Source: Scytalidium lignicola (Eukaryota; Ascomycota; Leotiomycetes). From it: a DNA stretch of 32,976 bases. The notes under the pieces are model-generated. The model was not told where the DNA came from. It was given only the letters and a program-made list of their open reading frames with translations, and did not search any database. Shown here piece by piece: positions 1,568 through 29,693 of the stretch. The DNA lies in NCBI GenBank assembly GCA_002812745.2, contig NCSJ02000429.1, positions 1 to 32,976 of the forward strand. The letters run 5' to 3'. Every line of letters begins with the position of its first letter. The stretch's first letter is position 1. The position numbers were made by a program, and so were the translations under genes.

Positions 1568-2671
1568 CTAGAGCTTGGTACCAATTGCAGCAAGAAGGGT
1601 AGGATAGGCGTTGTCATTAGGGGGAATCTCGATGAGTGAACCACCATCGTGAGTCTTAACCTCATCAAAGGTTGAGGTGGACGTGTTGTTGGAATCCACA
1701 GATCCACCAAGGCCGATATTCCACCCACAGAACGAAACGGAACCCTTGGTCTTGCTGGCCTTCTTCATATAGTTGTGGATCTCCTCAGAATCAGCAGTGG
1801 ACAACTTGATCTTTAACCCGACACCATATCCTAGCATGACTTGGGTAACAGCTCCGTAAGGCTTCGTCAGTTCAGCTGGTATATCGTCTCTGAGGTTGAG
1901 ACTTTTCAATTCCGAAGGATTCCTACAAATATCGATCAGTCTTGCTGGGCCAAGAATAGGAGAACTACTCATACCATTGAGGGCTTGGGTTGACAGCAAA
2001 GCGGCCATAACCGGTCATCGTGACTTCCACTTCGAGTGCAGGTGAGTTCTTGACCTGACGAACCTCCTTCACTACCTCCTGATTGTTCTCAGTGTAAGAG
2101 GCTCGGAAGAAAATAAAACCTCGACCTGAAGTGTCAATGTTCGATTCTTTGAATCCGATATCGCTCCAGTCTTTAGACTCGGCATCTTTTACGGTGAATT
2201 TGAAAGAGATCGGTTTGTCCTTCTTTTGGGGATATGTGCTAATCCAGTTTGTAACTTCTTGTTTGTACTGGGCTGAAATGTCATATGCAGGCATCTGGAA
2301 CTCATCGGTAACTTTATAATCCCCATCCTTGATCTGGTTTGCTGAAGCAGGAGAACATGGCATATTGTAACTAAACATTTCGTGTTAGCATCTGTAATGG
2401 TGGATCAAGGCTTGTACATAATACCCTGCACGATGAGTAGTGTCACTTGCATTGGCAAGCTGCCGCTTGTACTTCGAAACAGTTGCCGCTTCGGGACCTT
2501 CAACCTCACCGAGAGCTGAGAGAACGGCTGCACTAGTGCTATCTTTGGCCTCCTGACCAGACTCTTATCCCACGTCTCCTTGTCACCGCCAACAATATCG
2601 TTATTTGAATGTGTTGTCTGATTATATTGTGTTGCTGACACAGCAGTAGTTGGGGTCCGGACGAATACCAT
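1568..2671 (-). CDS. Protein of unrecognised family, 3-4 exons, 5' end uncertain
   Basis: Three exons are supported on the minus strand: 2552-2425, 2370-1975 and 1922-1568. The intron 2424-2371 (54 nt) has a GTATTA donor, a GCTAAC branch site and TTTAG acceptor. The intron 1974-1923 (52 nt) has GTATGA, ACTGAT and TTGTAG. Both keep one reading frame to the TAG stop, giving about 290 residues. The protein has GYG and GLGG stretches, a single CGW motif and many charged residues, with no membrane helix. I do not recognise the family. The first exon is unclear: an ATG at 2671 opens a protein-like frame, but it is one base out of phase with the exon starting at 2552, where an in-frame TAA lies just upstream. 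Either an intron ends at the TCAG at 2553 (a GTGTCA donor near 2641 would fit phase) or the gene carries a frameshift. It lies outside or at the left edge of the peptide cluster. Confidence 0.55.
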
Positions 2672-2942
2672 GCGCTAATACAACCACCTCTCCTCAAAGT
2701 GGCCGTGTAGCTTCTAATATACGGGTTTCTCCCGCTTCCTACCCATTTACGTTTTTAATAATTCTTGCGACGGTTGAGATTAAACGGTTATTACTTAATA
2801 TTGTTACAATTGAATTAATCAATCCTCCATACAGTTGGCGCAGGCTGGGGAGTTGTTTTGTTGACAATGTTTCTTTGGAATGGAGGCTGTTTGCGCGAGG
2901 ATAGGGAAAGGTATTATTATAGATTGTTTCTTCTCCTCCTTA
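2672..2942. other. Short intergenic spacer
   Basis: Lies between the unrecognised minus-strand gene and the stop of the AflR-type gene, so it contains the promoter of the former. Nothing else is recognisable; the plus-strand frame here (2650-2904) has no family features. Confidence 0.5.
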
Positions 2943-3566
2943 TCATCCAATGTCTTTTCCTGTCACGTCCTGTAATCCCCTATCTGTGTCATAACCCTCA
3001 TCTCTCATCTTTAGAGTGGTATTTTTCAAAGCGTTAATCAAGCTAGATTGGTACACACAAGTAGCTTCGTCCCACGTCTCTCTAGCGTTCTTCACACCAT
3101 CTGGCTGTAACACATCTCCTAGTTCGGAAATCACATCTATGGTGCGCTGTACTTCACTGAAAACCACCGCCTGCATAGCTGTTTCAGTGGGAGCGTTAAT
3201 ACTGAAAGTACCGACTTGAAGCTTGATCGTATTCGTCTCTCCCCGAGTGGAGCTGCCTCGTTGTAATAGAGCTGGGTAACATTCCGTCACTTGTCGCAGT
3301 AGTAGGGCGTAGAATGGAAAACGAGAGGAGTCTGCGCAGAGAGAACACGTTGAGTATTGGTGCACGACATTGACTGCTTGGCGGGTAGTGATGACGACCT
3401 GGTCTAGTGGTTGAGTCTCGATCCCGGCGAAGACTTGGTGGAGCTGCTCTGAAGCGCGGAGAGCGGAGACGAAACATGTGCATTCGCCTGAGCCATCACC
3501 ACTGTAACTGGTCATTCCTGGTGCCATCTGGCTGTGCAGCGAGTGAGCGCCTCCTTCTATAAACAA
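2943..3566 (-). CDS. AflR-type regulatory protein, C-terminal domain only
   Basis: The 207-residue frame matches the C-terminal region of fungal AflR-like pathway regulators (aflatoxin regulatory protein family). It shows a CTCFVSALRASEQLHQVF helix, then a long LDQVV..TRQAVNVV helix, then C-x2-C followed by a YALLLRQVTECYPALL helix. After a variable loop comes a final helix with MQAVVFSEVQRTIDVISELG, where family members have the 'L..EL.RV..LV' segment. The N-terminal Zn2Cys6 DNA-binding cluster that these factors normally carry is not present in this frame. TTTATAG at 3563-3557 could be an intron acceptor, making 3556 the exon start, but I found no cysteine cluster in the ~550 bases upstream. 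It is therefore a truncated regulator, a DNA-binding-less co-regulator, or a gene with a distant first exon. Position beside the peptide precursor suggests it was or is the cluster regulator. Confidence 0.65.
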   Translation of the reverse strand: MFIEGGAHSLHSQMAPGMTSYSGDGSGECTCFVSALRASEQLHQVFAGIETQPLDQVVITTRQAVNVVHQYSTCSLCADSSRFPFYALLLRQVTECYPALLQRGSSTRGETNTIKLQVGTFSINAPTETAMQAVVFSEVQRTIDVISELGDVLQPDGVKNARETWDEATCVYQSSLINALKNTTLKMRDEGYDTDRGLQDVTGKDIG

Positions 3567-4164
3567 ATGAAGCTTGAATTATTTATTTTCTTATGAAATA
3601 TGTTTACTGGAGGCTCCTATTTCCGGCCCCATTTACAATCAACCTTATAGGGGGACCGGGGGTGGGTAGGGTATCGAACCCAAAGACACGCTTCTGAAGT
3701 TTTCTTTACCTATTCCCCTGAACGAGAAATTATGAAACTACTGCTTTGGAATTACTGTGGGAATCTGTATATCTCCCTAATTGCGGATTGTTCTAAAGGA
3801 TATTCCGGTAATGACTTTGATGCTCCGGATTATCATAAGAGAAGTTCCGGAAGGGGTTGGCAAATCGCAACTAGTAATCCGGAATTTGCAATTGTCCTTA
3901 GAACCCGTCTACTGCTTTCAGGTTCATGACTCACTGCCGGGAGTCTAGATTGATGGACCAACCTTCGCAATCTTCCCCGGATTTTGTCTCAAAGGCTTCG
4001 TTCGCAGCCTAGCGCTCCACAAAACTAGCCGGCAATCTATCCCGATGGAATAACCTAAAGACATTCCCAATCGTCCTTAACTACCTGTCCTTAACCGTCC
4101 TCTTTCAGATAATTTATTCAATTTTGGTTTGTCTCTTCTTATCCGATCATACAACTTCGCCAAC
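3567..4164. promoter_or_regulatory. Divergent intergenic region with a TCCGGA cluster upstream of the peptide precursor
   Basis: This 600-base spacer separates the minus-strand regulator fragment from the plus-strand precursor. Three perfect TCCGGA palindromes lie within 60 bases (3824-3829, 3846-3851, 3878-3883), with a near match ATTCCGGTAA at 3803 and CCCCGGAT near 3977. CGG half-sites in inverted arrangement are typical targets of Zn2Cys6 regulators, so this is a candidate binding region for the cluster activator. Pyrimidine-rich sequence (TCTTTCAG, TTTGTCTCTTCTTATCC) precedes the precursor start codon, as in many fungal 5' leaders. The ORF at 3732-3929 looks non-coding. Confidence 0.45.
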
Positions 4165-4667
4165 ATGAAGGTGTCAATTCTCCTCGCCTTCTCTCTCGCC
4201 ACGGCCACTTTGGCTCTACCTTATACCGCCCGTATGTCTCATGTCTTACGTCTTTTGAGGGGTAATCCCAGTGAAGTTAACATTTCTCAGGTGCCCCAGT
4301 ATCTCTTAGCGTGAAACGAGACATCGAGTCCGTTGACAAGAGAGATATCGAAAGTGTGGATAAGAGAGATAAGCGTGATATTGAGAGTGTCGATAAGAGA
4401 GACATCGAAAGTGTCGACAAACGCGACATTGAATCTGTCGACAAGAGAGACATTGAAAGTGTAGACAAACGTGATATTGAAAGTGTGGACAAGAGAGACA
4501 TTGAATCTGTTGATAAGAAACGAGACATTGAAAGCGTAGACAAGAGAGATATTGAATCCGTTGATAAGAGGGATATTGAAAGTGTCGACAAAAGAGACAT
4601 CGAGCCAGTGGACAAGAAACGGGATATAGAATCGGTTGACAAACGTGACATCGAGTCAGTTGACTAA
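4165..4667 (+). CDS. Secreted Kex2-processed repeat peptide precursor (fungal RiPP precursor), 14 x DIE(S/P)VD
   Basis: Two exons, 4165-4231 and 4291-4667, are joined over a 59-nt intron (GTATGT donor, GTTAAC branch, TTTCTCAG acceptor) and give about 147 residues. Residues 1-17 are a signal peptide (MKVSILLAFSLATATLA); a short leader follows, ending in the first KR near residue 32. The rest is 14 repeats: 13 DIESVD and one DIEPVD (unit 12). Units are separated by KR, or KKR after units 8 and 12, with a stray DKR between units 2 and 3. The last unit ends directly at the stop. KR is the Kex2 site of the Golgi, so cleavage plus carboxypeptidase trimming would release many copies of one acidic hexapeptide. 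This is the architecture of ustiloxin, phomopsin and asperipin precursors, and DUF3328-type genes lie nearby. The core is unusual in lacking Tyr, Phe, Trp and His. The frame of the repeats is fixed by the splice; the upstream ATG at 4129 in the same frame is less likely because 4165 gives a clean signal peptide. Confidence 0.9.
4311..4664 (+). repeat. Tandem 24-nt coding repeat, 14 units
   Basis: The precursor exon 2 is a tandem array of mostly 24-nt units (27 nt where KKR replaces KR). All 14 hexapeptide-coding segments differ from one another at the DNA level although 13 encode the same six residues. Serine is written with TCN in six units and AGY in seven. Confidence 0.9.
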
Positions 4668-4668
4668 A

Positions 4669-4718
4669 GTAAGTCGTTATCACTCTACCCAAATTAACTC
4701 AGCACTAATCTATGTTAG
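4669..4718 (+). other. Probable intron in the 3' UTR of the precursor gene
   Basis: One base after the TAA stop (4665-4667) the sequence has GTAAGT, then CACTAATC as branch site and TATGTTAG as acceptor, 50 nt in all. These are the best intron signals in the neighbourhood and they lie outside the coding frame, so the intron is in the 3' untranslated region. Confidence 0.55.
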
Positions 4719-5280
4719 CCATTTCGTAGAAAATCAAAGGAGCTGGAGGATATTATCACAAGAATAAGATGAATAGATTTGTGGTTGGGGTCGCTGAATG
4801 AAGAGGTTGGAATGAGTGGTCGTGGGCAGCACAAGGTCATCAAAGTATTTAGTTTGAATTGGAAATTATGACCGTCGAGATTGATCTATGGAAAACTTGA
4901 ATAATTTTTGTGATGGCCGAACCATAATGTCCTTTTGTACTTGAAAGATTTCGACGTTGTCTCCTAGTTATGTTCTATATTTCATAGTAACTCTCATATC
5001 TTATGGGAGAGAAGCTCAAATTCCATAGAGAGTATATGGAGAGGGCTAAATTTACCTTGCGAGATATTAAAGTAAGGAGGAATTTCTATCAGACCCAAAC
5101 GTGTCCAACTTACCATATCAGTCCCACGCAATTTCATTCTATAATGGACCAAAGGCATCACAATCAACTAGCAACACAGCGTGATGGACCCAAGTACATA
5201 TTAGACCTCAGCCAAAGCATTTAATATATTAAGAGATTATACTATGGCGCATACTACCCAACTATTCCTTTCTCAATTTC
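4719..5280. other. Convergent intergenic region
   Basis: Shared 3' flank of the precursor gene (plus) and the HxxHC protein gene (minus). The frame at 5003-5224 has no family features. Nothing else is recognised. Confidence 0.5.
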
Positions 5281-6108
5281 CTAACACAAAGGATACTTAA
5301 CGGTAGCTTCTGTTGCGGCGGAGTCCATCGCCATACCCGAGTGGTCAGAAGCATTGATAATCAATCTCCCACAATGTGCCGTATGTTCATAATTCAGCAA
5401 AAACACGTCTAATTTCTTTCCTTTCTCAACAGCCCGATGCATCTGTCTCCATGCATAAGTACAATGCCAAACATGGTACTCTCTCGTAGCCCAAAATGTC
5501 CCTTCGTAAAATCCAAGCTCTTCTAGCGGAATGAGACTTAGCATCTCAGGAGTTGGCCGTTGACCGGGTGGGCCAGAGCTAGCGTAAAAAGTCCAAGGAC
5601 TATGCATCGCCATTATTTCAGCGTTGAGTTCTGCATCATAACAGTCTGGATGTTGCCATGAGGTGGTCATAATATCGAATATACAGCCTCGCACAACAGC
5701 TTCAGAGGGAGTATGACCACATCCTTGGGATCCAGATTCCGGCCAGGTCAGACGTTGAGATTCTGGGTTTTCAGAATTCCATGGCTCGTTCGAAGGAACT
5801 AGAGCCGCGTGTTGTTGGTGGATTTGATTTATAATAACGCGGAGTAATACTCCAGCTGTTCCAAGAATTATCAAGCTGAAGATGAGAAAGCTTATGCAAA
5901 TACCGATGCAGATAATCAAGAAACGACGGGATCGTTTGTATGTATGGGCATTGAAAGTCACATCACTGGCAACCTGCCACTCTTCTTGATTTTTAGAGAT
6001 CTCTTCGCCGTTTCGAAGAGGCTCGTACTTTGGCGGCGACAGGACTTTTGGTCCAGCCATGAAGACAGAGTCAAACAATGAACCACGTGACTTCGATTTC
6101 TGGCTCAT
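5281..6108 (-). CDS. Membrane-anchored protein with two HxxHC motifs, UstYa-like but not canonical DUF3328
   Basis: Single-exon frame, 275 residues from the ATG at 6108, which sits in a good fungal start context (ACAACCATGA). The frame stays open to an ATG at 6189, but those 27 extra residues look like leader sequence. Residues 1-60 are polar and cytoplasmic; about 62-90 form one transmembrane helix (IICIGICISFLIFSLIIL). Then comes a conserved block at 130-163, CGHTPSEAVVRGCIFDIM with W-x2-P-x-C-YD. I know this as a recurring fungal family that sits near secondary-metabolite genes. Two HxxHC motifs follow, HVWHC (212-216) and HTAHC (242-246). UstYa oxidases also carry two HxxHC motifs that bind copper, so I infer a related membrane-bound oxidase acting on the hexapeptide in the ER/Golgi lumen. 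It is convergent to the precursor and has TCCGGA twice in its promoter (6204, 6222). Confidence 0.75.
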   Translation of the reverse strand: MSQKSKSRGSLFDSVFMAGPKVLSPPKYEPLRNGEEISKNQEEWQVASDVTFNAHTYKRSRRFLIICIGICISFLIFSLIILGTAGVLLRVIINQIHQQHAALVPSNEPWNSENPESQRLTWPESGSQGCGHTPSEAVVRGCIFDIMTTSWQHPDCYDAELNAEIMAMHSPWTFYASSGPPGQRPTPEMLSLIPLEELGFYEGTFWATREYHVWHCTYAWRQMHRAVEKGKKLDVFLLNYEHTAHCGRLIINASDHSGMAMDSAATEATVKYPLC

Positions 6109-6399
6109 GGTTGTTAAAGGGCAATGATGGGAGCATATTTCGAAAAGATGTCTCATTACACGCCATGATTGATTAAGACTTGTAGCCAAAAGTGAGGGAA
6201 AAATCCGGAACCCACTGGACCTCCGGACTTATGGCCTCCACCCACTCTCGTCGCCCCGTAACCCCTGGATAACGAAATCAGGACTCGAATTTTACTACTC
6301 GTCAAAACCTTGCAAGGTCAAAGGGAAATTAGGCACTTTACAAGTATAATCACAGCTTGACAGGAATGCTCGAATCTCCTTTTCATATCGATCACAAAG
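6109..6399. promoter_or_regulatory. Divergent promoter region with two TCCGGA palindromes
   Basis: Lies between the HxxHC gene (minus) and the short plus-strand transmembrane gene. TCCGGA is at 6204-6209 and 6222-6227, 18 bases apart. The part nearest 6109 would be the 5' leader of the minus-strand gene. Confidence 0.4.
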
Positions 6400-6704
6400 A
6401 TGTACTCATCCAAAAGTACTCCCCAATTTTCGGCACGGACATTTGACGATGAATTCTCGAAGCTCAGCACTCGGAGAAGTTGCCCGCTGAGGATCGTCCT
6501 TCTCCTTTTCTTCATGTGGATTGCTTCATCAGCTGCTTTTGGAGGTTTAATAGCAATATGGCGAACTTCTCATAGTGAGTTCCAAAGTATAGCTAAATGA
6601 CAAGTTGGGCTTTAACAACCAGTGGCCTAGTGGGTAATATAACACAAAGAGCCACATTAACTGAATATTACAACTCGTGGAGTGGACTTCTAGCAAGTGA
6701 GTAG
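6400..6704 (+). pseudogene. Short transmembrane protein or truncated UstYa-like N-terminus
   Basis: The ATG at 6400 opens a 58-codon exon to 6574. A 56-nt intron (GTGAGT donor at 6575, acceptor CCTAG ending at 6630) leads in phase to a second exon ending at TAG 6702-6704, for about 82 residues. The layout is a polar N-terminus, RRSCPLR, then one hydrophobic helix (IVLLLFFMWIASSAAFGGLI), which is the N-terminal layout of UstYa-type proteins. A second possible intron (GTGAGT at 6697, GACTAAG, TTGCAG ending at 6743) leads to a stop within two codons. No HxxHC motif is found before the next gene. I read it as a degraded oxidase gene whose catalytic part is lost, though a genuine small membrane protein cannot be excluded. 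Confidence 0.4.
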
Positions 6705-7145
6705 TTTAGTTCCGATTATAGATATTAGGACTAAGAATTGCAGAAAGGTGAAATTCATGGTGGTAGGGTTTTCAAGTCACGTTCAATTAGATGGCTATTT
6801 AAGTTGACATAAATAAAATGATTTGCTTCACTAATTTAAACNTTTTTTTAGTGTTGAAATTATATTTAATGCTTTAAAAGCAATATTAGTATGTAGAATA
6901 TAAATAAGGAATAAGACCGGGGACTGTGGATATAATAGATATTTGCGTAAGCTTGCCGTTAGATGTTTTACCTTCCGGATTTCGCTCATGCAGGTTCTTC
7001 CACTCTAGACCGACAAGTACCCCGGTCACTTACGACTACTGCTCTTAACCAATTTCTGTTTTCTTTCTTCTGTCCACAATATAAAGTTATGTGCACTGTT
7101 CCCTTTACTTCTTTTCTGTTAGGCCCCTGCTTATTCTCATCCATC
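6705..7145. promoter_or_regulatory. Upstream region of the transporter gene
   Basis: AT-rich 440-base spacer. TCCGGA at 6974-6979 lies 167 bases before the transporter start, in the same motif set as the other cluster promoters. An ambiguous base at 6842 precedes a T-run. The in-frame ATG at 6963 is probably leader sequence. Confidence 0.4.
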
Positions 7146-8954
7146 ATGTCGCAAGCCTTTCGATTTCCTCTAAGGCCAACGTATGAAGATCTCTCTTGCG
7201 AATATGATCGCTCGTGTAAGAGTGAAAAAGATGATGCGGAGAAGCCGGCGGAAAACGATGTTCACATTCCAACTATGAGCCTCCCGCTCTTAATTGCGTC
7301 GACATGCGGTCTTGGAGGGCAAGTGACTTCCTCATGACTTGTACCTGATTTGTTTCTAACAAGTCACGTAGTCTCCAAGTTGTTTGGTCTGTCATATTGT
7401 CACATGGCGCGGTACCTATCCTCTTATATCTTCTCTGGTGCCGTAATTCTAATAACTAAACTAGCCATTTCTGATCTCAATGGGACTTTCTAAGTCTCTC
7501 ACTTCTCTTGTATGGATAGCCGGACCCCTTAGTGGCGTCGTTATTCAGCCATTGATGGGAGCATTGAGTGACCGCAGCCGCAATTCATGGGGTCGGAGAA
7601 GGCCCTACATTCTCGGAGGAGCAGTCGGAACAATCTTATCCATGATCTTCTTGGCCTGGCTCGAAGAACTTGTGAAAACGTTGACTAGACTCTCATACGG
7701 AGATGTAGATGACAAGAGGTTCAAAACAGTCGTTATAATATTTGCGGTATTCGGGGTCTATATTCTCAATATTTTTATTCAACCTCTTCAGATGGGACTC
7801 AGAACTATTGTCATTGAAAATTGCCCGAAGAGTCAACAGGAGCAGGCCAGTGCATGGTCTAGCCGCTTGACTGGAGTTGGAAACATTGTTGGATATCTTG
7901 CTGGTATCATTGACTTATCGCGGTTTGCTCCGTCACTCTTCGTTACACAGTTTCAAAGCCTTTGTTTAGTCGCTTCAATATCTTTGGTAATTGGCGTTAG
8001 TATGAGTTGCATTGCAGTTACAGAGAAAAACCCACAGAACGCTCTCCTACCTACCGGAGAAAATTCCAGCTTCTCATCATATTTCAGACAATTGTTGCGT
8101 ACTTATAGAACCATGTCATGGAGGATCAGAAGAGTCTGCCACATTCAATTCTGCGCATGGATGGCATGGTTTCCTTTACTTTTTTATAGCACGACGTAAG
8201 TTGAGAGGAATGATCCTATCTGCTTGTATCCAAGGCTGACTTATCAATAGTTACATAAGTGATCTTTGTAAGTCTTGCATTTAAATTCTCTTTGTATAAC
8301 TAATATTTAGAAGATAGTAAATCAATTCTGCTTCGTTTTGACGCTGCGGCTTTCCACATGCGAGGTATAATTCACGAAAGAGGCATTCGTATTGGGGCTT
8401 TTGCGAGTCTCATTTTCGCCATTGTTGCCCTCTTCGTAAACATGGTCCTTCCTTTCATCGTATCTGGCACCCCTCATAATGGAAAACCAAACCGAACTGA
8501 GTCTGTTCACTTCCGGCTCTGGGAACCCACGGTAATACAAGTTTGGACAGCCTCGCACATATTATTTGCTATGGCAACATTCTCGACAATCTTCATTACT
8601 TCAAAGACAGGCGGCATCATTGTCATTGGTTGCCTAGGACTATCTTGGGCATTGACACTCTGGGCACCATTCGCTATTATTGGAGTTGAGATTGCTACGC
8701 TCCAGGAGCTTCTTAATGCTGATTCTGAGAGTCGATTTGGAGCGGTCACAAATTGTGATACAGGTGTTATTTTGAGCTTGCATAACATAGCCATTTCAGC
8801 TCCACAGATTTTTTCAGCCTTGATATGTAGTGGCATCTTTTGGGCTGCCCATCTGTTGGAAAGTTCAGATGCTACAGGCTGGACTTTAAGAATCGGAGGA
8901 CTTGCAGCTTTAGGGGCAGCATGGCTTTCGAAAGGTTTATCTCGAGAGATTTGA
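7146..8954 (+). CDS. MFS transporter of the GPH (sucrose/alpha-glucoside) type
   Basis: Five exons: 7146-7318, 7372-7411, 7465-8195, 8251-8267 and 8314-8954, about 533 residues. The product is a 12-helix type carrier. After a polar 45-residue N-terminus the first helix holds STCGLGG, exon 2 gives the Q-V-V-W-S of the family, and exon 3 has SLTSLVWIAGPLSG. Next comes the loop GALSDRSRNSWGRRRPYILG, the GRRRP signature between helices 2 and 3 of GPH/sucrose carriers. Later helices include LHNIAISAPQIFSAL, also typical. Relatives transport sucrose or maltose with protons. Beside a peptide cluster it may instead export the product, but that is inference. The first intron is of GC-AG type (GCAAGT). 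Exon 4 is only 17 nt. The last acceptor is the second AG of TTTAGAAG, because the first would create a stop. Frame and motifs hold throughout, so the model is well supported although hand-made. Confidence 0.85.
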
Positions 8955-9670
8955 AATGACTTTCCCATGAATGAGTCATGTAGATATAGAGAGCATATTG
9001 GTATGAAGCTATATAGGTGGGAAAATGATAAGAGTCTTTAAGAAAGCCTGACCAAAAACGGTCAATCACAAAAATTCTTGAACCTATTTAAACATCATTT
9101 ATAGACTAAGAAAAACTTGTGGAATCAAACCTATTTGGGCTTGCATATTTTATTTATTTGATACATGTTACAGTTATATATTTAATTTAATAAAACTTGT
9201 GCTCTAAACACCTATTATACCAGACACCGTCTGCCGGTTCCATACAATCGGACAAAATCAACTGAAGTCAAAGTAATTTGAACAGTTTGTTTAGAAATAC
9301 ATATTCTGTAATTCTAATAGGATCTGTTGGAGGGGGGGACATCGAACCTCTATTGAAACACACCTACATAACACACCTAAATCCGGAACTTAGAAAGATA
9401 ATTTAGCGAAGGTTGCTTATTGGTAAATTATGATCCTCCGCCTCTTAAAAGCCCGGCCGGAGGTGCCTCCATATTAGATCGGAGGAGTTTGCTAATGTGG
9501 GGGTGAGGCAGGAACTGAAACACCGGAGGAAGAAGCAGTCCCTGAGCTCTCCCATACCAAAATGAAAACATGGGGCTTCAACTACTTTGAAGTTCATTGT
9601 TCAGATAGCTTCGTGGTCTTGGGAGCTAGTATTCGAGAACTGCAACACAAAATTTAAGAATCAACTAAGG
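8955..9670. promoter_or_regulatory. Spacer between transporter and UstYa gene
   Basis: Contains AT-rich sequence around 9080-9210 and the TCCGGA motif at 9382-9387, 284 bases before the UstYa start. The interval 9440-9540 is GC-richer with several CCGG/CGGAGG elements. No gene is seen. The frame from 9587 runs into the UstYa gene and I regard it as 5' leader. Confidence 0.4.
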
Positions 9671-10842
9671 ATGTTTTCAGTTTTAGGGCCAAAGCATACC
9701 TACAGATCACTGCTTTCCAATGAGGATCTAGATTCTGAAGCAAAGGATTTATGTCGATCTGAGTTGAAAACAAGGAGAACCAGAGCGTTTTGCAGTCTCC
9801 TGCCATGGGTCCTTTGTGTGATACTCGGCATAGTTCTGATTATCGTGTCGACGGTCCATCACACCTCTCACCGTCACGGCACGTATGAGACTGGATTCGA
9901 TACTGAACTTGGTAATATTTAATTCATTCTATGTTCTCTGAGACAACATTAATTAATTTTCTATAGCTGCTGCCAACTCTGTACTCGGGCTTACGAAGGT
10001 CAAATTCTATGGTGGGATTCGGATAGATCCTAATGGCACCTATTATTTGTCCCACAACCCGGCAGAGCCGAACTATGTAGGGCCTTCAAGTCCAGAAATT
10101 GATGAGGCGTGGGACAGAATGTTGCTACATCGTAAGTATCTCGTATGAAAATACTCTCCAACAAGAGACTCATGAAACGGCTAACAAGGTATTCTAGAAC
10201 GATATTTTGGATTGACTCCTGAGGAAGTAGCACAGACGGACTTCAAAGTCGATGAAAAAGATTGGATCTTTGACCTCTACTGGGTTTCGTATGTTGAAAC
10301 TTACGAGCTAAAAGATTATCTACTAACATGAAATACTTCTAGTCCGAATACTTTCCATAGTCTGCATTGTCTGGTTCGTACTTTCTGTCTTCTTTAGAAG
10401 GGCAAGATTTAACGTAGACAGGACTATATGCGCCGCTCACTGGACAGAGATTATTACAAGGATATTCAGGACTTACCATCAAGGCCGTTCAGAATGTCGC
10501 ACAGAATGCATTTAGGTAAGTGGAATGGCTTTTAAATAAATTTTCATAAAAAAACATTGCACTGTTATTCAATGTCTAACAGTATGCGTAGATCATTGTA
10601 TAGAAGCACTACGTCAGACTTTGACATGCTCACTGGACATGACTCCTGTTCCCAGACCCTGGATTCCCCAAGCCGGGATATATCATGCCGATATCGATCA
10701 GTGGCACACTTGTCGAGACTACAGCTCGGTGAGATCTTGGATGGATTGGAGAAACCGTGATGAGAGGGACAGTGATTTCATTAACGTTACCCATCGGTAT
10801 AAGGATCCTGATGCACTATATGCGAAATATAATCCTTGGTGA
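9671..10842 (+). CDS. UstYa-family (DUF3328) oxidase
   Basis: Six exons: 9671-9911, 9967-10131, 10198-10288, 10343-10373, 10422-10515 and 10592-10842, 290 residues. All introns are 48-76 nt with GT...AG. The start at 9671 gives the usual layout: a short cytoplasmic tail with Y-x-S-L-L, a transmembrane helix at about 42-62 (LLPWVLCVILGIVLIIVS), then the lumenal domain. That domain has D-E-A-W-D, FHSLHC (HxxHC at 171-175), DYMRRSL, a second HxxHC at 206-210 followed by IEALRQTLTC, and WHTCRDYSSVRSW near the end. The two HxxHC motifs and the W-H-x-C-R element define the family, whose members oxidatively modify or cyclise ribosomal peptides such as ustiloxin. In intron 5 two in-frame acceptors lie 9 nt apart; only the distal one (GCGTAG, ending 10591) creates the second HxxHC. 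It probably acts on the DIESVD precursor. Confidence 0.92.
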
Positions 10843-11897
10843 AGGCTTTGATGACTTTGAGACGAAAGTTTATGCATATCTTAGAAGTTGAATAGAAAGT
10901 GTAATCAAATGAATCAAGGCTATAGTAATCCTTTAATTTCTTTTTGCATTGAGTATATATACGTGATCTCTTCAAGATAGTTAACTACACTGACAANTTT
11001 TTCAACTTATTTACTACTAATTTCAAGTTTAAATATTTTTAACGATTATAATTTATAGATGTTATTTCACCAATAACTTTATTATATATAAATAATTTAT
11101 CAGCTTTAAAAATTTTGTATTTTATTTAACAGGTATTATTATATAAATATTTTATTATTTTATTAAATAATGATCTTCCTTTCACAATCCTTGGTTATAA
11201 CTTAGATCAATTGGAGTTAAAGTCTCAAACATTTAATCAGCTGTTCATAACAATTCTATTTCTAAGACAGCCCGAACTGGCAATCCTTTTCGGTTTCAAA
11301 CCCGAAGGAACGTGACCGTGACAAATACCATGAAATTACCACATCTAGGTAGGAGTCTATGAGATGGTTCATTTTGAGCTTGGGAGTGATTGGACGAGGG
11401 CGCTGTGGCGCCACATGTCTTTGGTCCTAACATGACGGGCTTCAGTGGTATCCAGTCGCTTGCGATAACGAGACTCTAACAATAGCCGCAGGAAATGTAC
11501 CGTGGAACAGGAGTGTATGTAAATTGGCTATTCATGTAAATAAATACATATTCACACTCTTTAATTAAATAGACGCAACTGTTTAAAACAAATTCCATGT
11601 CAATTAGCTTTTAATCAATGTTAAACGTTAAACTACAGAAATATTTTTGCTGTATCTTTGTCCTGTACAGTTTTACGCATACTTCCGTTCCGTGTACTGG
11701 ACACCTCCCTACTGCATTCTCCTATCAGAGCCAGCCACGACCCTGGCGAATCCGCCTTGGGCTGAACAAGATAACATTATTTTTCACCATTTCTAACTCT
11801 TTCGAATTTCTGTTTGCATGTTCTTCTAAATTCAAGTTGGGCATTGGAATTGGAATTGCTGTTCGTTTTTATTCGAGTGAATGAATTCATTAAAGGC
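10843..11897. other. Intergenic region with an AT-rich patch
   Basis: The stretch 10985-11175 is strongly AT-rich and includes an ambiguous base at 10997 before a T-run; the rest is of normal composition. The frame at 11618-11884 has no family features. This probably marks the right edge of the peptide cluster. Confidence 0.5.
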
Positions 11898-13062
11898 ATG
11901 TCGTTTGGATTCAGCGTCGGCGACTTCCTTGCTGTCGGTCAAATCGTCCTTCAACTTTACAACTTCTGTCAAAATGCGCCAAAAGAATCCCAAGAAATCT
12001 GTGGAGAGCTCAGTTCAATCCACACAGTTCTCTCCGGACTGCCGAACAAGCTGAAAACCCAACTTCATTACTGCTTCGTCGTGGAGGTCGAGGCTTCGAA
12101 TGGATCCAGATCAGAAAAAATCTCGAGAACACTCTCGCTGAGCTTCAAAGTCTCATAACTCGGTATCAGACAATGGGTAGGAGTGCTTAGCGTCGTATGA
12201 GACTGGGGTCTGAGAACTTGAGTGAGCTGAGGTCTAAATTAGCTTTCCATCTCGGTGTCATTAATACGTTTGTTGGTAGCCTCGCATTGTCCGCTTTGGG
12301 ACGGATGGAACCGGTGCTTGGGGAAATTGAGTGCTTCTTGCGCGAGTATGTTCGAAAGGAGCGGGCTGAGCATAAGACACCAACTGTATTGACAGCACAT
12401 GAGACTAACGATATAGTATCTTGGAAGCAGGTGGAGATGGACTTGTTGCTTGAAGGTATTTCCATGGAAGATTTTGAGAGGAAAAGGGAAAGGATTAGGG
12501 AACTTCTGGATTGGGTTGTGCACAACGAGTGTGATCTTGCAGGGCTACAGAGGTCGAACCCGACGATTCCGTGTCCCGAGTCGCCGCCAAAACAAATCCT
12601 TTCAATTCTGAAGTGTTTGAAATTCAGCCTTCGATATTATCAATTATTGATAAGATTTTTTGTCCTTCACTCGATCCCGATGTTACTTATATCGGATCCA
12701 TTTACCAGCAAAAGAAAATCAACGATTCCGAGTACGTTCCTACTGTAGCATTCTAGAAGGTCTTTGGCCTATCCTCCTTTGATCAGGAAGTTTAAAAGGC
12801 TTTCAGTCAAGCATTCTTTGAGAAGAGAACAGACCTTGGTGATGCCTGGAAAACTCTGGACTTGGAGTCTAGCAAGCCGACCAAGCCTAGCCTAGCGTCT
12901 GAAGTTTATGATACCACTCTACGTGGACAGAATTTTTTTTTTCTCCGCTGGGTGATATCTATACAGTTAATACAGCAGAATTATCTCCGCAATATGACCC
13001 TTTCCAATATCCTAACCCCGGACTCCCAAAGCTCCAAGAAACGCCTAAATCTTTCTTCATAA
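11898..13062 (+). pseudogene. Decayed STAND/NACHT-type protein gene, fungal N-terminal domain
   Basis: The ATG at 11898 starts MSFGFSVGDFLAVGQIVLQL, the characteristic opening of the N-terminal domain found on many fungal STAND/NACHT and ankyrin proteins. After about 50 codons the matching sequence continues in another frame (about 12070 onward: LENTLAELQSLITRY). It is broken by TAG at 12188-12190 and then runs on as RLGSENLSELRSKLAFHLGVIN, with a long helical, charged segment to about 12560. The tail shifts frame again (12571 onward) and is cut by TAG at 12754-12756 and a TAA shortly after. The stop at 12188 replaces what in relatives is usually a Trp codon (TGG to TAG), the G-to-A change RIP makes on this strand. 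At least two frameshifts and three stops make it a pseudogene. It abuts the AT-rich block, which fits spill-over of RIP or simple loss of function. Confidence 0.75.
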
Positions 13063-13817
13063 TCATTATGTCATTTACATATCAGCTTATAATCAAGGAT
13101 TTGTTAGTATTTACAAATATACTTAAATTATTATAATAAAGTTTAAAATTAAAGGTTTTCAAGTTAATGAAAGCTTTAATATATTATTCTCTTCTTAATT
13201 GTTTTAACTTATAAAGTAATTTTCTTAATAATAAAACCTTACCTTTTAATACTTTTAAACAAATTAAAGCTCTTATACATATAATAACATATAGTTTAAC
13301 TTTTAAATATACATTAACAACATTAACTTGTTATATTTCTAATTTTTCCTTAACTTTAATAGTTAATAGTATTTTTAATGATTTAAGCTTAATGATAAGG
13401 TTNAAAAATCTTCAAGTAATCATTTCTTTCCTTTTAATTATGACTTTAAACTATTAATCTAATCTTTTTTTTTCGTTTAATTTGACTAGTAAATGTGAAT
13501 TTGATAGTAAACACTTATTTGAAGTTTATAAGGTTATACTCTTTTAATAAGTTAACATACTTTTAAGTTCTTAAAGCTTATAATATATTAAATTCCTTTT
13601 ATATAACTTCTCTTTATNAAAAAGTTAATTAAAGTTTTTTCTTCAGTTTTAAGTATATAAAATTAATAACTTTCTTAAACTTTAAAAGCTTTTTCAACTA
13701 TATAACTTATAAGGTGATAACTAGTTTAATTTACATACTTTTCATTCTTAGTATTTATTAGAATTATATCTTTAATTAGCTTATTTTCAATATTGNTTTT
13801 TTAACTTAAAATTAAGC
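13063..13817. other. AT-rich DNA, no gene
   Basis: The composition changes sharply near 13070 to almost pure A/T with many TA steps and dense stops in all frames. No motif is recognised. Ambiguous bases at 13403, 13618 and 13796 adjoin A or T runs. Confidence 0.6.
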
Positions 13818-13833
13818 TTTAAGAACTTCTTTA
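13818..13833. repeat. Target-site duplication, left copy
   Basis: TTTAAGAACTTCTTTA, 16 bases, identical to 19065-19080. It abuts the TAA-rich 3' tail of the LINE. Confidence 0.85.
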
Positions 13834-15338
13834 TTATTATTATTATTCTTATACCATAGGCTATAGGGCTACCCTAAGGGTATGCAGGATAACTACACTG
13901 TCATACAGGAAACTATGCTAACTCCTTGACTAGGTGAAAACCTCTATGCTGCTCTCTATCTGCTTAAGTGCAATTACCTCATCTTGTCTCTATTATCCTC
14001 TTGTCCAGTACTTAGCTTACTAACTTAGTTGAGGAGAGTTTTGCTGTGCTATTAAGTTAATAGTTAATAACTTAGTTCTTTAAGATACTATTACTTTGTT
14101 GTTGTCTTATTCTGCTCTTAAATCCTCAGTTGTACTACTAATTTGTACTCTTGTAACCTTCTTGTAGTTAACACTTAGCTAACAATTTATTTACATCCTT
14201 GACAACTTCTTAGTATCTCTCTTAAGTCTCTTGCTATATAAACCTTTGTTTTAAGGCTCNTTTTTCATTTGTTTTAAGTTTGGACAGTCAATGATTAAAT
14301 AACAAGCTATTTCTTTTATAAGTCCACAATTACATAATAGTATATTTATGTTAAGTATATAACGTTTAAACAAATACATTTATAATCTAATTTTGCTAAT
14401 ATAAATTTGTATAATTAACAAGCTAATTACTTTGTCTAACTTACTATATAAGAGTAATGCNTTTTTTGTTAAAAGTAGGAAAGTCTATAACTTCTGTATA
14501 ATTGTATAACTTAGTTAGCTTAACAACTTCAAAACTCTAAGTTTATCTTACCTTCTAATCTCTTGTTATAATTACATTGATTACCTTTAATGTTGCTTAG
14601 TAACCCTTCTATTATTACAACTATATTACCTTGTATTCATTGCTTTCTTTAAGTAGTCACTTTTTCATTTACTACTTATATCTTCTTCTTTTCTTCAAGA
14701 GTCCTGTTATCTTGCTATTTATTCAGTGAATTACTTACTTCAAGCTTATACAATTAAGACAATCCTTAAATGCTACTACTCTTTCATTCAAGTATAAGTT
14801 TAACAATAAGCAGAATATCTTCGTCTTTAAACTCTAAATTAAAATGTCTTTATAAGCTCTTACTATTATATAAAGACATTATAACTACATTATAAGTAAG
14901 CAACAGCTAATTCCCCTCAGATTACCATTAGATTTTATAAGTTAATAATATATAACAATGTTATATATAATTATACTTTGTATAACTATTGTATAAATCT
15001 ATCTTGCTCTTATGAAGTTACATCCTTATATTTTTACTGTTAGTCTTGTTAATGTAAATATTTATATAACTAGCNTTTTTCTTAATCACCTTTGTATAAA
15101 CTTTAAAGTTAAACTACTGATTAAGTTAAATCCTTAAAAAACAAGCTGATTCTTTAAGCTTTAATTCTTTATTGCCAAGGCATATTAACTCTTTCCTTGT
15201 TGTACAAGTACATATGAAGTATATTAACTTACTTTTACTTACTTTGAATTGTATACCTTTACATATTACTTACCTTTTGTATATTTTCCAGCTTACTTCT
15301 AATATCTTACAACAACTCTTTATAGTATATACACAACT

Positions 15339-15383
15339 AAGAAGGTTCATATCATTTGCAAAGTCAATTACAACTAAACCTTT
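15339..15383 (-). pseudogene. LINE reverse transcriptase catalytic box, mutated
   Basis: Read on the minus strand this gives V-V-I-D-F-A-N-D-M-N-L-L, the active-site strand of a LINE reverse transcriptase. The first Asp of the FxDD box is replaced by Asn (AAT for GAT). Confidence 0.8.
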
Positions 15384-17786
15384 TATCTTTCTTAATTCAT
15401 CATATAAAGTAAAGATATATAATATAAACAATATTAGTAAAAGCAAAGAACTTTACAAGACTCTTACCTTTATTAGGATTAGCTAGGTCATTTCACTGTT
15501 AAAGGATAAACAAACAATCTTGTTTGTTAAGTAGTTATTAATCTAGCTTATTAACCATTATAAGAAGCCTTTCTCTTAGAGTATATGTTATAACCACTTA
15601 TAGTTTACTATGTTAAATGCTCTTTTAAGATCAAGTTGTAACAATAATACAATAATGCCTTAACTTTATGTTGTATAGACAATGTCTATTATTGTCCTTG
15701 TTGCTAATTCTGTAAATCTGCTATGTCTATTTCCTATCTGTCCTTTTAAGAGTAGTCCTTACTTCTCTACTACTTCTGTAATACAAATAACTATTATAAC
15801 TTCAAATACTTTTACTATACAACTAAGTAGTACAATTAGCTATTATCCTCCAGCCTGTTGTAATTATTCCATTGTCTTGCTTAGTTTTCACAATACTATC
15901 ACATTCACTATGTAATAATTACAAGGAAAGTATTCTAGTCTAAAGTTTATTTTAACTAAGACTATCAGAATTCATTATAATAACTAACTACAAGCTTATA
16001 AAAACCTATTAGTTAATTAGTCTAACCTTAATACCTTTTATACTCTAACCTTATGAAATGCTTATATAATAGTTACTTCATCATAACCTTTGTCTATCTT
16101 AATCATTCTTACTTGATTTATATCTTATAGTCTGATATAATCTACTTATACTTCTAAGAAAAACTTAACTATAAACACTATTACTTTCTTATTATGTATA
16201 TGCACTAGTAGTCTTTTTAAGTTGTTGTTATATAACTTTAAGATCTTTGACAAGTCAACAAGTATATAATTACATGTTCATGCTCATTATTCAAGTGTTT
16301 ACAACTTACAAGTATCCTTTATTACTATTACTACTGCTTATTATTAGCTTTTTATTTAAACTTGAGCAATTCTTTTCTTTTGTTCCTTAAGAGCTTAATC
16401 TAAGTTCTAACAATTTTACAAAGACTTATTTATATACTACTAATGTTCTGCTTTCTAAGCAACCTTAATTACTTTCTTAGTTATATAATTCTACTATAAT
16501 GTTAAGTAGCCAACTAATAACTTCTTTCTGAGTATTATCTTATTTGCAATATTAATCAATTATTTTGTTAATATATCAACTATTTTGTCTAACTACTCCT
16601 TAGTAAATATATAACCTAAGAAGAATAATAAGTTGACTACTATTACTTTAACTTTTTCATAGTCTATTAATCTCCAACTATAACCTAGTTCTTCATTGTA
16701 TATTTACTGCTTACTTACTTCAAGTTCAATTTTAATAAGCTGTAAGGTATAGTCTAAACTAGTCTAATCTTCAACTTTTATATACTGAATTCAAAAGTCT
16801 ATTATATACTAAGCATAATCAATGATTAAGTCTTTATTATCATTTTGTCTTTATATAAGTTCTCCTTTAAGTATAACAAGCTTAAGCTTTTATCATTGTA
16901 CTAATATTAACAATTAAAGATTCGATGATTCACTGAATTCTGCAATTAACTTTATCACTTATTCTTTCTTCTTTATCTTATATTAGATGATATTGATTAA
17001 AATCACTTGTTAGTATTATATAACTTTCTAATTCTACTACAACAAGATCATAGATAAGTATATGCTAATTTAAGGTTGTGTATCCAGTTAAGTATATCAA
17101 GTAAACTATTATATTTTCAACTATAAACATTACTTTTACTTAGTTCTCTTTTACTTTGTATGATTATACAACTAATTCATAGCATTTATGTATATATATA
17201 ACTACTCTCTTACTACCTTATATTCTTCGGTAATTCTTGTTATTTAAACAGTATATATCTTTGGTCTATTTGTTTACTTATAATTCTTAGACTACTAACA
17301 TATTATACTTGTTATTATCCTCTAATACTTTTATCATACATTCACATTTTCTATTTTAATTCTAATATAAAACTATAATTATAATTATACTATGATTATA
17401 TCTATTATCATACTACTTTGTTAACTAGTCTATTATTATTAGTTCATTAGATTTTCATCACTTTAACTAGTTATAAAACTTGACAATAAGCTAAGTAATA
17501 ACTAGTTAAACATAAAGTTATTATGTTAACTTGAAAATTTGTTTAAAGTATTTCCATTTATTCTTCTTATAATACTTAAACCTATAAGTCTACCTCATAA
17601 GTTTGCTTAAGTTCTGAGTCTTTTCCTTTCAAATACTATCTACTACCCTTCTTCTTCATTGTTTTCCATTAGCCTGGTTATGTTAAGCTAAGTTGTAATA
17701 TAAATTATGTTGTTTAATCTAACCAGTTTTATTACTCTGTTTTTATATACCTCTTTTACTTAATCCTAGTACTCCTTTACTGCTGG

Positions 17787-17831
17787 ACAACTCTGATCAA
17801 ACATTGTATGTTCCCTATCACAGCCACAACA
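17787..17831 (-). pseudogene. LINE ORF1 zinc knuckle
   Basis: Minus-strand C-x2-C-x3-H-x6-C motif, the nucleic-acid-binding knuckle of LINE ORF1, with all four ligands still present. Confidence 0.75.
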
Positions 17832-19064
17832 CTTGAGCGTAATTTCTCTTAAGTTTGTTGAACATTCTTCTTCTCCTCCTTCATATACTACTCTTATGCA
17901 GTAAGTATACCACTTCTTCATCTTGTAATATTGTATATAATGTCCTTAAGCCTAACATTTGAAATATTGCTTTAGTTATAACTTGTTCTTGAATGGCTTA
18001 TAGTAGAATACTTAACCTTCCTAGTATAAACCTTAGTCTATAAGTCTGTATACATTTCTTGTAATTGCTAGTTCAATATATAAGCAGCTTTTCCATTGTT
18101 AACCTTCTTCATAAGCTTGGCAAGCTTTAACCTAAAGTACTATTATTTTATTCTCTTTTTCTAGTACNTTTTTTAATTAAGGCTTCGTTATATTCAGCTA
18201 ACAAGTAATTGGATATTCCTTTAACATATACAACAACTCTGCCGTTGACAATTCACACTTCTTCTTCAAATACCTTTTGAACTCATTGTATGTTAAGCAA
18301 ATACTATTCTTTCTGGCCATCTTCAAAAATTACTACTATATTACCATTAAGTAACTGCCTTATTACATGCACACCACCTTGTGAGAATGTAGTTGTATTA
18401 ATTGCTATTACTATGTCTTGTAGGTTATAGTTCTTAAGCTCTAACAATATACTAAAAATGTATACGATGATTTCGTGGTTTCTTTTCATTAGTAGTCTAC
18501 AAGTCCTTTATTACATGTTCTCTATGTACTCGTTGTCAGACTGCATTATTATTGTTAAGGAGACTGCCATTTAAGCCTATGTATGCTCTTAAGGTCAAAT
18601 GACTTTTACAAATGCTTCTTTCAGGTTTCTACAAGTAATTAGTATATCGTCGTTATTGTTGGATTACTTCGCAGCTACTTCATGTTTGAATTTGAAGCAT
18701 AAAATTTTTTCCACCAACTAAAGCACTTTATGTATGTTTCTCTCCTTAACTAGCTGGTTGAATTACAGTAAATCCTCATGTTTGTTGCTGCTTAACTCCT
18801 ACTCCGTTACCCTTCTTTGGCCACATTCCTTATCTCCATAGCTCTGGCGTTGTTAGTTCTTCTGTTGATGGTTAAGGCTTGCAATACTATCATCGTATCC
18901 TATAACCACATTATGCCTGTGTCCTGCTTGCAACATCACAGCTAAGCATGTTTGACATGCTGAGTACAACTCTACTATTGGTATTGAATTAGGCTTTAGT
19001 ATTAGCATAGTGCTAAGGTTCAATTATTCCAGTTCTTCAGTTCTAGAATATCAAAGAATTCAGT

Positions 19065-19080
19065 TTTAAGAACTTCTTTA
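19065..19080. repeat. Target-site duplication, right copy
   Basis: Identical to 13818-13833; it marks the 5' end of the LINE and so its full length. Confidence 0.85.
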
Positions 19081-19910
19081 ACTCTTTTAAATTAAAGGTT
19101 AGTTTTAAAAGCTTTAAAGTTATTATATTTTTAAATACATTTTCTCTTATAAGTTTAGTAATTTTATAAGCTTTTAATGATTTCGTAAAGTTAAAAACAA
19201 TTATTTCTTCTTTTATTAGTAGTTCTTACTAATTGAATTATAACCTTTAGTCTTCTTTAAAAGTAAAAGCTATAATATTCAAGACTTTACTTATAAGAAG
19301 ATTATAAAGTTTATAATACTTAATAAAAGGTAAGTAATTAATAAAGCATATCTTAATAATTATAAGTTTTAACTTTGAACATCTTTTAAGTAGAATAATA
19401 AAATATATTATATATTTAAAAGCTTTAAGATAACTAATATATAATTGTTTGTTAGTGTATATCTCTTTAAGAGTCTTATCTTTAAGGTTAATTAAAGTAT
19501 AATTCTAAAAGTATAATGTTATAATTATAACATCTTCTTAAAATTTAACTAATAATTATACATTAATTAATATAACTTTAGTTAAAATCATTAAAGTTTT
19601 ATTTAATCGTTTAAAAACTTCATTTTCTTATTGTATATAAGTAATAATAAATTCAAAGTATATTTCTTAACCCTTATTATATTTCNTTTTTTAAAACCTT
19701 ATATTTAAATGTGTTATTATACTTTACAACTTTGATTTTAAAGTTTATTTTAAACTTAACCTTTACTTTGAATTTAATAAAGATTTTATATAAGTTAAAC
19801 CTTTTGTTAATGAAATAAACTTATATTTTACAATTATATTCGTCTGTAAAAATAATTATATGTACATATATATATATGTTAAGAATCTTATATAACTTCT
19901 ATATATTATT
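19081..19910. other. AT-rich DNA, no gene
   Basis: Very AT-rich, with stops in all frames. It is the continuation of the pre-insertion host of the LINE (joins 13817). Nothing further is recognised. Confidence 0.6.
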
Positions 19911-19992
19911 AATAGTTAGTAAGCACTCGGCTGAGGGGGAAATTTCACTACTAACTACTTAAGAGTCGTTAGCATAAGTATTCTATCATCTT
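19911..19992 (+). repeat. Terminal inverted repeat, left
   Basis: About 82 bases, inverted copy of 22239-22320 with roughly 80-85 percent identity by eye. Confidence 0.8.
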
Positions 19993-22238
19993 AAAGTATT
20001 CGGTCTCCTTTCACAAGATAACTAAATTATACAAACTATTATATAATTTGTATTTNAAAAAGAGNAAAACTACTTATACTATAATGAAATAATTATTCAA
20101 ACTCTATAAAATCTAAGTCCATCTATAATAACTTTATAACTCTGGTTTCTTATTCTAATTAAACAGTTGAAGTCTTAATAATATAATCATTTATAACTGA
20201 GTTTAATCTTCTAGAAAGCTGTAATTCCTTTATATAATCGTGCTTTAGTATTATATTAATATCTTCGTTATTTACTGAAGTTATAAACCTTTTAATTATA
20301 ATTAAATCAATTAGTTTATTAATGTTTCTAATAATAATTCAGTTAGTATAAGATGAAACTTATTCTTCTTGTATTTAATAATACATATAATTATAACTTT
20401 ACATTCTTTCTCCTTAGCTTTTTATACTTTCAAATCTTCTAAATATAACTTTTAGAGTATTAATTCTTGCTTTTTCTTAAGAGTTTTAACTTGTTTCTTT
20501 AAAACTTCTTTTTCTTCTCTTTTCTTAACCTTAATCAACTCTTATAAGTTAAAAAGGTTTTTACCATCTTTAAACAAAGTTACTTTTATTATATTTTTTA
20601 TTTTAGCTTTAAAGAAATGTTTTAAGTTGATATAATCATAACTTGCTTTATATAAGTTAAATCAATTAATTTAAGAGTATATTTAATACTTCAGAAAGTT
20701 ATAAGAAAACATTATATAAAAGGACTAGAAAATATGTTTAGAATATAGTCTTTAAACTGTTTAATTACTTAAATATTATAACATACAATTTTAAGTGTAA
20801 ATAAAAGTATTAATAATGTTAATTTTTATAATTAATCAAGAATAATATATGACTTAAGTTGAGTAAATGCCTTATTAACTTGAATTAGTTATATATTACT
20901 ATCATAAAAACCATATTGTATAATCTCCTGTTAAAAGGTTTACTCTTGAATATAATTCAAATTGTAAAAGAAAGAAACAATTATATATTCTAACTTTAAA
21001 CATTAAAGTGTTTAACATATAGCTTTTTTATAATTATACTTGTATAACTAAAATATCTTAACATTTAAAGGTTAAAGAATATAAATAAGATATAAAAGAA
21101 ATTATAAAAGGATAATATAATATTAAATAGCCAATTCTAAGAACTTAAGCAATTTATAAGATTTATAACCATCTAAGAGAAAAAGCTTTATCTTAATAAG
21201 TTTGTTTGTATTAAAATTAATATATTTTTAACTTTTAAGATTAAAATTTTTTTTTCTTTACTTTTAAAAACTAAATGAAATGTTTAAGCTAATAGATTTT
21301 AATATTATTATTAGTATATTTTGAAAAAGTAAAAAGTATAAGAATATCTTTAAGAAGATTCTTTTAAACTTAATTTTTTATAATTTATGTATTTTCTATA
21401 AGTATAACAAGTAGAATAAAAGCACTTTTATTAGCTGATATACATTTTATGATTATAGAAGATTTACAATTTTGAAAAGTACTTTTATATAATTACTAAT
21501 TTATTAGTAAATTAAGTATTATTTAAATATATTTATCTTTAATACTTCTTTAATATGTATTAACATAATAACTTACTCTTCTTCTATTACATTAATATGA
21601 AATCTTATCTTATCCATATTATAAATATTCTTCTTCTAAATCTCATTTTCTTACTGAATATTATTATACTTTAAGAATTATTACTTTATAAGCTTTGCAT
21701 TTTATACTTGAATTTACTCNTTTTTTAATGAGTTTAGTTGTAATTATATGAAATTGCTTAGAATAAGACTTTAAGAAGTTGTGTATTCATTATATTAAAG
21801 GTTTTTTATCAATATTATAAAGGTGCTTTATTATTCTCATAAGTATAGCCTTGTTTAATAAGTTGTTATTGTATACTTATATTGTAATATAAAAGTACAA
21901 TATGTCAATTTAATAAAGCTTTAAGAAAGGAAGTTATCCTTTACTCTATTTAAAGCCTTTAATAAAGGTTGAATAATGTTAGATTACTTTGTAAAGTGTA
22001 TTGATTTTAAGGTTGAATATATATGTAATAGTTATAATTATAATAAAATCCTCAAAGTCTTGATTATCAAAATACTATTTGATAACTTCATCTAATCGCT
22101 AAGTAATTATTGCAGAAGAGGTTTTAGCATTTTAAGAAGTATATTGATTGAAATATTATATAATGTTAACAGTAAAACGTGTAATGAAGGTACATGACTT
22201 TAATGTTTAAGGTTTGTGAAAGGTAATTGAATATATTA

Positions 22239-22320
22239 AGGTGATGGAATACTTGTGTTAACTACTTCTAAGTGGTTAGTAGTGAAATTTCCCTCTTAGC
22301 CGAGCGTTTACCAACTATTA
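22239..22320 (-). repeat. Terminal inverted repeat, right
   Basis: Partner of 19911-19992. The GC-containing CCCTCTTAGCCGAGCG block stands out from the AT-rich surroundings. Confidence 0.8.
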
Positions 22321-23833: not shown

Positions 23834-24165
23834 TGTTATAAGACCTCTAAGGACATAGTCATATAGTCTTAGGCTAATTACTCTTGTAAGATTTATATAA
23901 AAATAAAACATCTGAAGTTATAATAAACAAGTATTTATTATAAAGTTATAACTTAGGTTAAACATAAAGTTCTTAATTAAAGCTTAGAGAATATATTCTT
24001 ATATAAACAAGTAAGTATAGCTTAGTATAATTTGTATAACCTTTATACTTTTTTATACNTTTTTATACTCCTTGCATAAGTTACATAATACAACATTTGT
24101 TAGTTACCAACACTTTATAAGCTAATCTCCAAGCTTATCAGGTTATAACAGTAAAATCCATAACA
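23834..24165 (-). repeat. Probable 3' LTR of a Gypsy element (minus strand)
   Basis: The segment starts TGTTATAAG and ends CCATAACA (TG...CA with TGTTA/TAACA ends). On the minus strand it is preceded by the purine tract AAAAAGAGGATAA (24178-24166), the expected polypurine tract next to a 3' LTR. The 29681 site has the same arrangement. Confidence 0.55.
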
Positions 24166-29680: not shown

Positions 29681-29693
29681 TTATCCCCTTTTT

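Follow-up and report, generated by a model that had tools for sequence, protein, structure and literature searches.

The DIESVD precursor gene and its neighbours

The contig of Scytalidium lignicola analysed here (C365, taken over its whole length of 32,976 bases and called the window below) belongs to an assembly that totals 46.85 Mb and has 664 contigs. Within 8 kb, from 2943 to 10842, it carries every gene that an earlier sequence-only reading had named: a Kex2-repeat precursor built on the hexapeptide DIESVD, a UstYa (DUF3328) gene, a gene for a second membrane protein that we call E, a transporter gene and a piece resembling an AflR domain. The proposal made from these genes, a fungal cluster for a ribosomally synthesized and post-translationally modified peptide (RiPP), is supported by gene content of the ust-RiPS/dikaritin type, by a shared upstream motif and by a genome-wide association of E with UstYa.

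The precursor gene (4165..4667, forward strand) has two exons (4165-4231 and 4291-4667) separated by a GT-AG intron of 59 bases (4232-4290), with its ATG at 4165 and its stop codon at 4665-4667, and encodes 147 amino acids. The N-terminus is hydrophobic and signal-like, as judged by hydropathy only, and is followed by a short pro-region and then by 14 DIE(S/P)VD units with KR/KKR sites (4320..4664, forward strand). The gene model and the units are as first proposed, a signal peptide with 14 Kex2-separated hexapeptides. Thirteen units read DIESVD and one DIEPVD, a single residue change among the 14; 13 units precede a basic site (11 KR, two KKR), with an extra DKR after unit 2, and KR or KKR is found at 13/13 inter-unit boundaries. 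There are 10 occurrences of the pattern DIE-x-VD-KR-DIE in the window and none in 100 shuffles. In their DNA, 14/14 units are distinct, with differences that are almost only synonymous: over 91 unit pairs the proportion of synonymous differences (pS) was 1.00 and that of nonsynonymous differences (pN) 0.083, a pN inflated because paths cross two serine codon families, just one residue differing among the units. This is most simply read as selection for the unit peptide with drift in its DNA. Since wall proteins may contain charged repeats, the repeat might be that of a structural secreted protein in which the KR sites are incidental; given a basic site at each boundary and a DUF3328 neighbour, we consider this very improbable. 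The DIE-x-VD pattern was absent from the viral contigs searched, and no mention of DIESVD was found in the open-licence literature searched. A match to the precursor at C542 falls within a frame of 1193 amino acids.

The UstYa gene (9671..10842, forward strand; exons 9671-9911, 9967-10131, 10198-10288, 10343-10373, 10422-10515 and 10592-10842) had been described as a canonical DUF3328 protein with two HxxHC motifs, which is confirmed by a complete six-exon model that matches PF11807 (E-value 3.7e-34) and contains HSLHC and HLDHC. The second motif requires the acceptor at 10592, not the one at 10583, and the orthologue in Rhynchosporium graminicola (78%) likewise has HLDHC. A structure model of the UstYa orthologue P0012, used as a stand-in for the window protein, has a mean predicted local distance difference test (pLDDT) score of 80.3 and places the HxxHC motifs on helices 174-188 and 209-227. 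The UstYa profile had no match among Protein Data Bank (PDB) sequences, and the one match in NCBIfam was at chance level.

The transporter (7146..8954, forward strand), also borne out, is of the SUC/SLC45 type in the major facilitator superfamily (PF13347, E-value 2.4e-8). Its five-exon model includes a fourth exon of 8 bases (8251-8258), a putative splice choice that keeps the frame, and the first intron (7319-7371) is apparently GC-AG. Relatives with solved structures are plant SUC1 and SLC45A4, and distant relatives occur elsewhere in the genome. The claim of an AflR-type domain fared less well: the AflR-like piece (2943..3527, reverse strand) is a sub-threshold Pfam match (17.4 bits, where 24 are required), its role is doubtful, and it is not a demonstrated regulator. 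F (6400..6751, forward strand), a short membrane-protein frame with a spliced model of 85 amino acids and no Pfam match, may be a fragment. Neither the AflR piece nor F has a paralogue in the genome.

Protein E and its association with UstYa

E (5281..6108, reverse strand) is the second membrane protein with two HxxHC motifs that had been noticed at the locus, and its identity as such is now secure: an intronless gene for a 275-amino-acid type II membrane protein in which a membrane helix (55-102) precedes the motifs HVWHC (H212/H215/C216) and HTAHC (H242/H245/C246). E matched nothing in Pfam at E-values up to 0.1, PF11807 included, and nothing in NCBIfam; its sequence had two unconvincing matches in PDB (E-values 0.07 and 0.084), and a fold search with its structure model gave no match at E-values up to 0.001. 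A Pfam scan of 11 E-family members found PF11807 weakly in one (E-value 0.011), together with weak matches to zf_topless in one (E-value 0.00036) and to MCRA in four (best E-value 0.024). Database relatives form 8 clusters at 57-81% identity, one of them from Rhynchosporium agropyri, and none were present in the viral and prokaryote contigs searched. No prior description of the family was found in the literature searched, in itself a weak basis. In an alignment of 18 members, 8 of them from the same genome besides E, the residues C130, G131, A137, C142, W151, C156, H212, H215, C216, H242 and H245 are invariant (18/18), and C246 is absent from one member.

The model of E (mean pLDDT 73.6; 127/275 residues at or above 90) has HxxHC helices at 209-229 and 240-251. 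Compared by eye, the models of E and P0012 run in a partly similar order, from a long N-terminal helix through strands and a helix to the pair of HxxHC helices, with a strand after these. The DUF3328 protein CctR is described as a dimeric, membrane-anchored binuclear copper enzyme with its HxxHC pair on adjacent predicted helices, in a 2025 study showing a DUF3328 enzyme to be a copper oxidase for unactivated C-H bonds (PMC12435403). E resembles CctR and the DUF3328 enzymes in its HxxHC(x)nHxxHC arrangement, in having one membrane helix and, in the models, in carrying the motifs on successive helices; it differs in having no PF11807 match, in the 25 residues between its motifs and in the extra invariant C130, C142 and C156. 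E is probably a divergent DUF3328-type copper oxidase, with weak support for the homology.

Genome-wide, a six-frame search found 13 E matches and a PF11807 search 54 exon matches, both counts being lower bounds. Nine of the 12 E matches outside the window lie no more than 10 kb from a UstYa exon, as against 1.3% of the genome, and 7/12 no more than 5 kb away, as against 0.7%. The three exceptions are on C157, a contig with no UstYa match, on C628 (48 kb) and at C221:158497 (16 kb). The binomial figure for this proximity, 2e-15, overstates independence because some of the matches share a contig and the paralogous clusters may have a common origin. By eye, no contig was apparent that was common to the database matches of E and of UstYa.

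A shared upstream motif and further Kex2-repeat genes

Of the 9 sites in the window with the hexamer TCCGGA, 7 fall within 2,039 bases of upstream sequence: three upstream of the precursor and also of the AflR piece (3824..3883), two between the divergent E and F (6204..6227), one upstream of the transporter (6974..6979) and one upstream of UstYa (9382..9387). The sites are not assignable to single genes, since the region upstream of the precursor is upstream of the AflR piece too and the E sites stand between E and F. Shuffles of the four upstream regions reached 7 sites in 0/1000 cases (mean 0.46), and other loci of the genome contain 17 sites in 121,806 bases. All five occurrences in the window of the longer form WTCCGGAW (5/5) are in the upstream regions of the four genes, and no TCCGGA was found in the left flank, the convergent 3' region or the right flank. 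An origin of the motif in a shared repeat was considered and is not supported, the upstream regions being single-copy by search.

Of the remaining two TCCGGA sites, one (2656) falls inside the reading frame of the gene that borders the cluster on the left (1568-2674, reverse strand; its frames have no Pfam match) and the other (12033) in broken frames, apparently of a longer gene, that likewise have no Pfam match (11894-12750). From 13000 to 32000 the window is AT-rich, with 17-34% GC per kb and one frame of at least 90 amino acids beyond 13 kb, a stretch that we take to resemble the outcome of repeat-induced mutation.

Scans of other loci covered 45 overlapping records (239,295 bases) that include part of the UstYa loci and were mostly chosen via UstYa or E. 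The Kex2-repeat scan needs at least three similar sites in one frame, so that single-core or intron-split precursors would escape it. Besides the window, three Kex2-repeat genes in the scanned loci adjoin UstYa matches, on C228, C340 and C188, and all three carry Tyr. The C228 precursor, with repeats of (D/E)(I/T)ESPYY-KR (L015:1116-1554, reverse strand), has a UstYa match about 0.9 kb away. The compact C340 cluster (L042:2400-7400), in which a EDGADEYGAKWA-KR precursor occurs with an E-family gene and two UstYa matches, repeats the window's set of Kex2 repeat, E and UstYa. On C188, PPYHPNIDVVD-KR repeats (L001:72-278) lie about 1.2 kb from the genome's best UstYa match, in a stretch of 68 residues only whose start is outside it. 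Among the six E loci with at least 7 kb (window, C340, C635, C643, C421 and C221), the scan found a Kex2-repeat gene at 2/6. At L040 (C635) and L041 (C643), two E-family matches each are next to UstYa matches, with no Kex2-repeat gene by scan.

The C188 repeat bears on a further explanation, in which the window holds a decaying dikaritin cluster, DIESVD being the remnant of a longer repeat after loss of its aromatic core and the regulator and F being already reduced. The DIESVD-KR unit resembles the NIDVVD-KR end of the C188 unit, the AflR piece has no DNA-binding domain, F is short, one transporter splice choice contains a stop, and the cluster borders on about 20 kb of AT-rich DNA. Against this, the units are near-unchanged as protein while synonymous change is saturated, the models of UstYa and E are open, and each has a Rhynchosporium orthologue, in different species (R. 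agropyri for E, R. graminicola for UstYa). We therefore think decay improbable.

Relation to dikaritins and a proposed pathway

Like the clusters of the dikaritins (ustiloxin, phomopsin, asperipin-2a, victorin), the cluster in the window combines a Kex2-repeat secreted precursor, a DUF3328 protein and a transporter, and it is as small as the asperipin cluster, which has four genes and, as described, no tyrosinase or methyltransferase (PMC6514808). It differs from them in a core with no Tyr, Phe, Trp or His, a sucrose-type transporter and the Pfam-less E, and in that tyrosinase, methyltransferase and peptidase were unseen in the window open reading frames scanned. A DUF3328/UstYa protein is quoted as class-defining for dikaritin/ust-RiPS, and an older five-part definition of dikaritins includes tyrosinase and methyltransferase (PMC12048977). 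We assign the cluster to dikaritin/ust-RiPS by gene content, the aromatic core of that class being absent. Ustiloxins, phomopsins, asperipin, victorin and epichloecyclins are described as having rings that include Tyr or Phe (PMC9233826, PMC6514808); the epichloecyclin precursor GigA likewise has repeats between Kex2 sites, and differs in that its ring is made with Tyr (PMC9233826).

A published survey counted 7878 Kex2-processed repeat proteins (KEPs), secreted proteins whose repeats are likewise separated by Kex2 sites, in 1345/1461 strains, 1758 of them next to DUF3328 genes (PMC7329392). Because such neighbours are this common, the gene arrangement alone is not novel; what is unusual is the aromatic-free core and the Pfam-less E. 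The survey reports Tyr in 65.6% of the repeats of DUF3328-adjacent KEPs (PMC7329392), figures with which a DUF3328-adjacent KEP lacking aromatic residues is compatible, if unusual. The window units, of 6 residues (8 with KR), are at or below the survey minimum of 8 amino acids (PMC7329392), and since at least 8 amino acids between sites were wanted, such short-unit precursors may have been missed.

Taken together, we consider it likely that the window contains a co-regulated RiPP cluster of the ust-RiPS/dikaritin type, in a new variant whose product would be modified. Several observations weigh against this. The survey cited calls Tyr mandatory for ring closure in ustiloxin, phomopsin and asperipin (PMC7329392), and F, W, Y and H are found in 0/14 units. 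No tyrosinase, methyltransferase or peptidase was among the 18 proteins and open reading frames scanned, on a contig that starts 2.9 kb leftward, and no Zn2Cys6 pattern occurs in any frame of the window, leaving the AflR piece with no DNA-binding domain. The precursor had no relatives at E-values up to 1 among 5.8 billion proteins, for which a repetitive 147-amino-acid query is poor. TCCGGA was picked after inspection, and a control with any hexamer was therefore run; a hexamer with at least four G/C reached 7 sites across all four regions in 6/1000 shuffles. For E, an hhalign comparison with UstYa gave 45%, with both HxxHC motifs in register, from a broader alignment and 3% from a narrower one, and the UstYa model has C-terminal helices that are missing from the model of E. 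The scan found no Kex2-repeat gene at 4/6 of the larger E loci, so that the link of E with UstYa is firmer than its link with repeats. The putative exporter is a protein of the sucrose-transporter kind, and one splice choice in its gene yields a stop.

Another possibility is that the precursor is a KEP releasing an unmodified, linear DIESVD with a hormone- or effector-like role, UstYa and E acting on another substrate or the neighbourhood being partly due to chance. The aromatic-free core would suit such a peptide, and for 6120/7878 surveyed KEPs the 15 nearest genes included none of the DUF3328 type (PMC7329392). We nevertheless hold it unlikely, given the upstream motif common to precursor, E/F, transporter and UstYa, the fact that only 1.3% of the genome is as near as 10 kb to a UstYa exon match, and the three other Kex2-repeat genes that adjoin UstYa matches, in loci mostly chosen via UstYa or E.

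If the co-regulated cluster is as we propose, the precursor would enter the secretory pathway through its N-terminus, as its sequence suggests. The basic sites suggest that Kex2 would cut at KR/KKR and that a carboxypeptidase such as Kex1 would trim the basic residues, giving about 14 DIE(S/P)VD hexapeptides. UstYa and E, both membrane-anchored, would face the lumen with their HxxHC(x)nHxxHC domains and act on the peptide there, UstYa as a binuclear copper, O2-dependent C-H oxidase by family membership and E perhaps as another, by its motif, topology and model. Because the unit has no aromatic side chain, we speculate that the likely outcome would be hydroxylation, desaturation or a crosslink on aliphatic carbons of Ile or Val. 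The SUC/SLC45-type transporter may handle or export the peptide, as its position and the shared upstream motif suggest. More tentatively, E could be the founding member of a second and so far uncatalogued family of copper oxidases with HxxHC motifs. Such an enzyme would cooperate with UstYa, perhaps in a mixed pair, and enable oxidation or crosslinking of an aromatic-free peptide, the crosslink type being new to the fungal RiPP literature examined.

With its conserved, aromatic-free substrate, this compact cluster offers a direct test of DUF3328-type enzymes on aliphatic and acidic peptides. Short units such as DIESVD may have escaped earlier length filters, and genome mining for clusters of this kind would gain in breadth from the E family, which is Pfam-less yet associated with UstYa throughout one genome.

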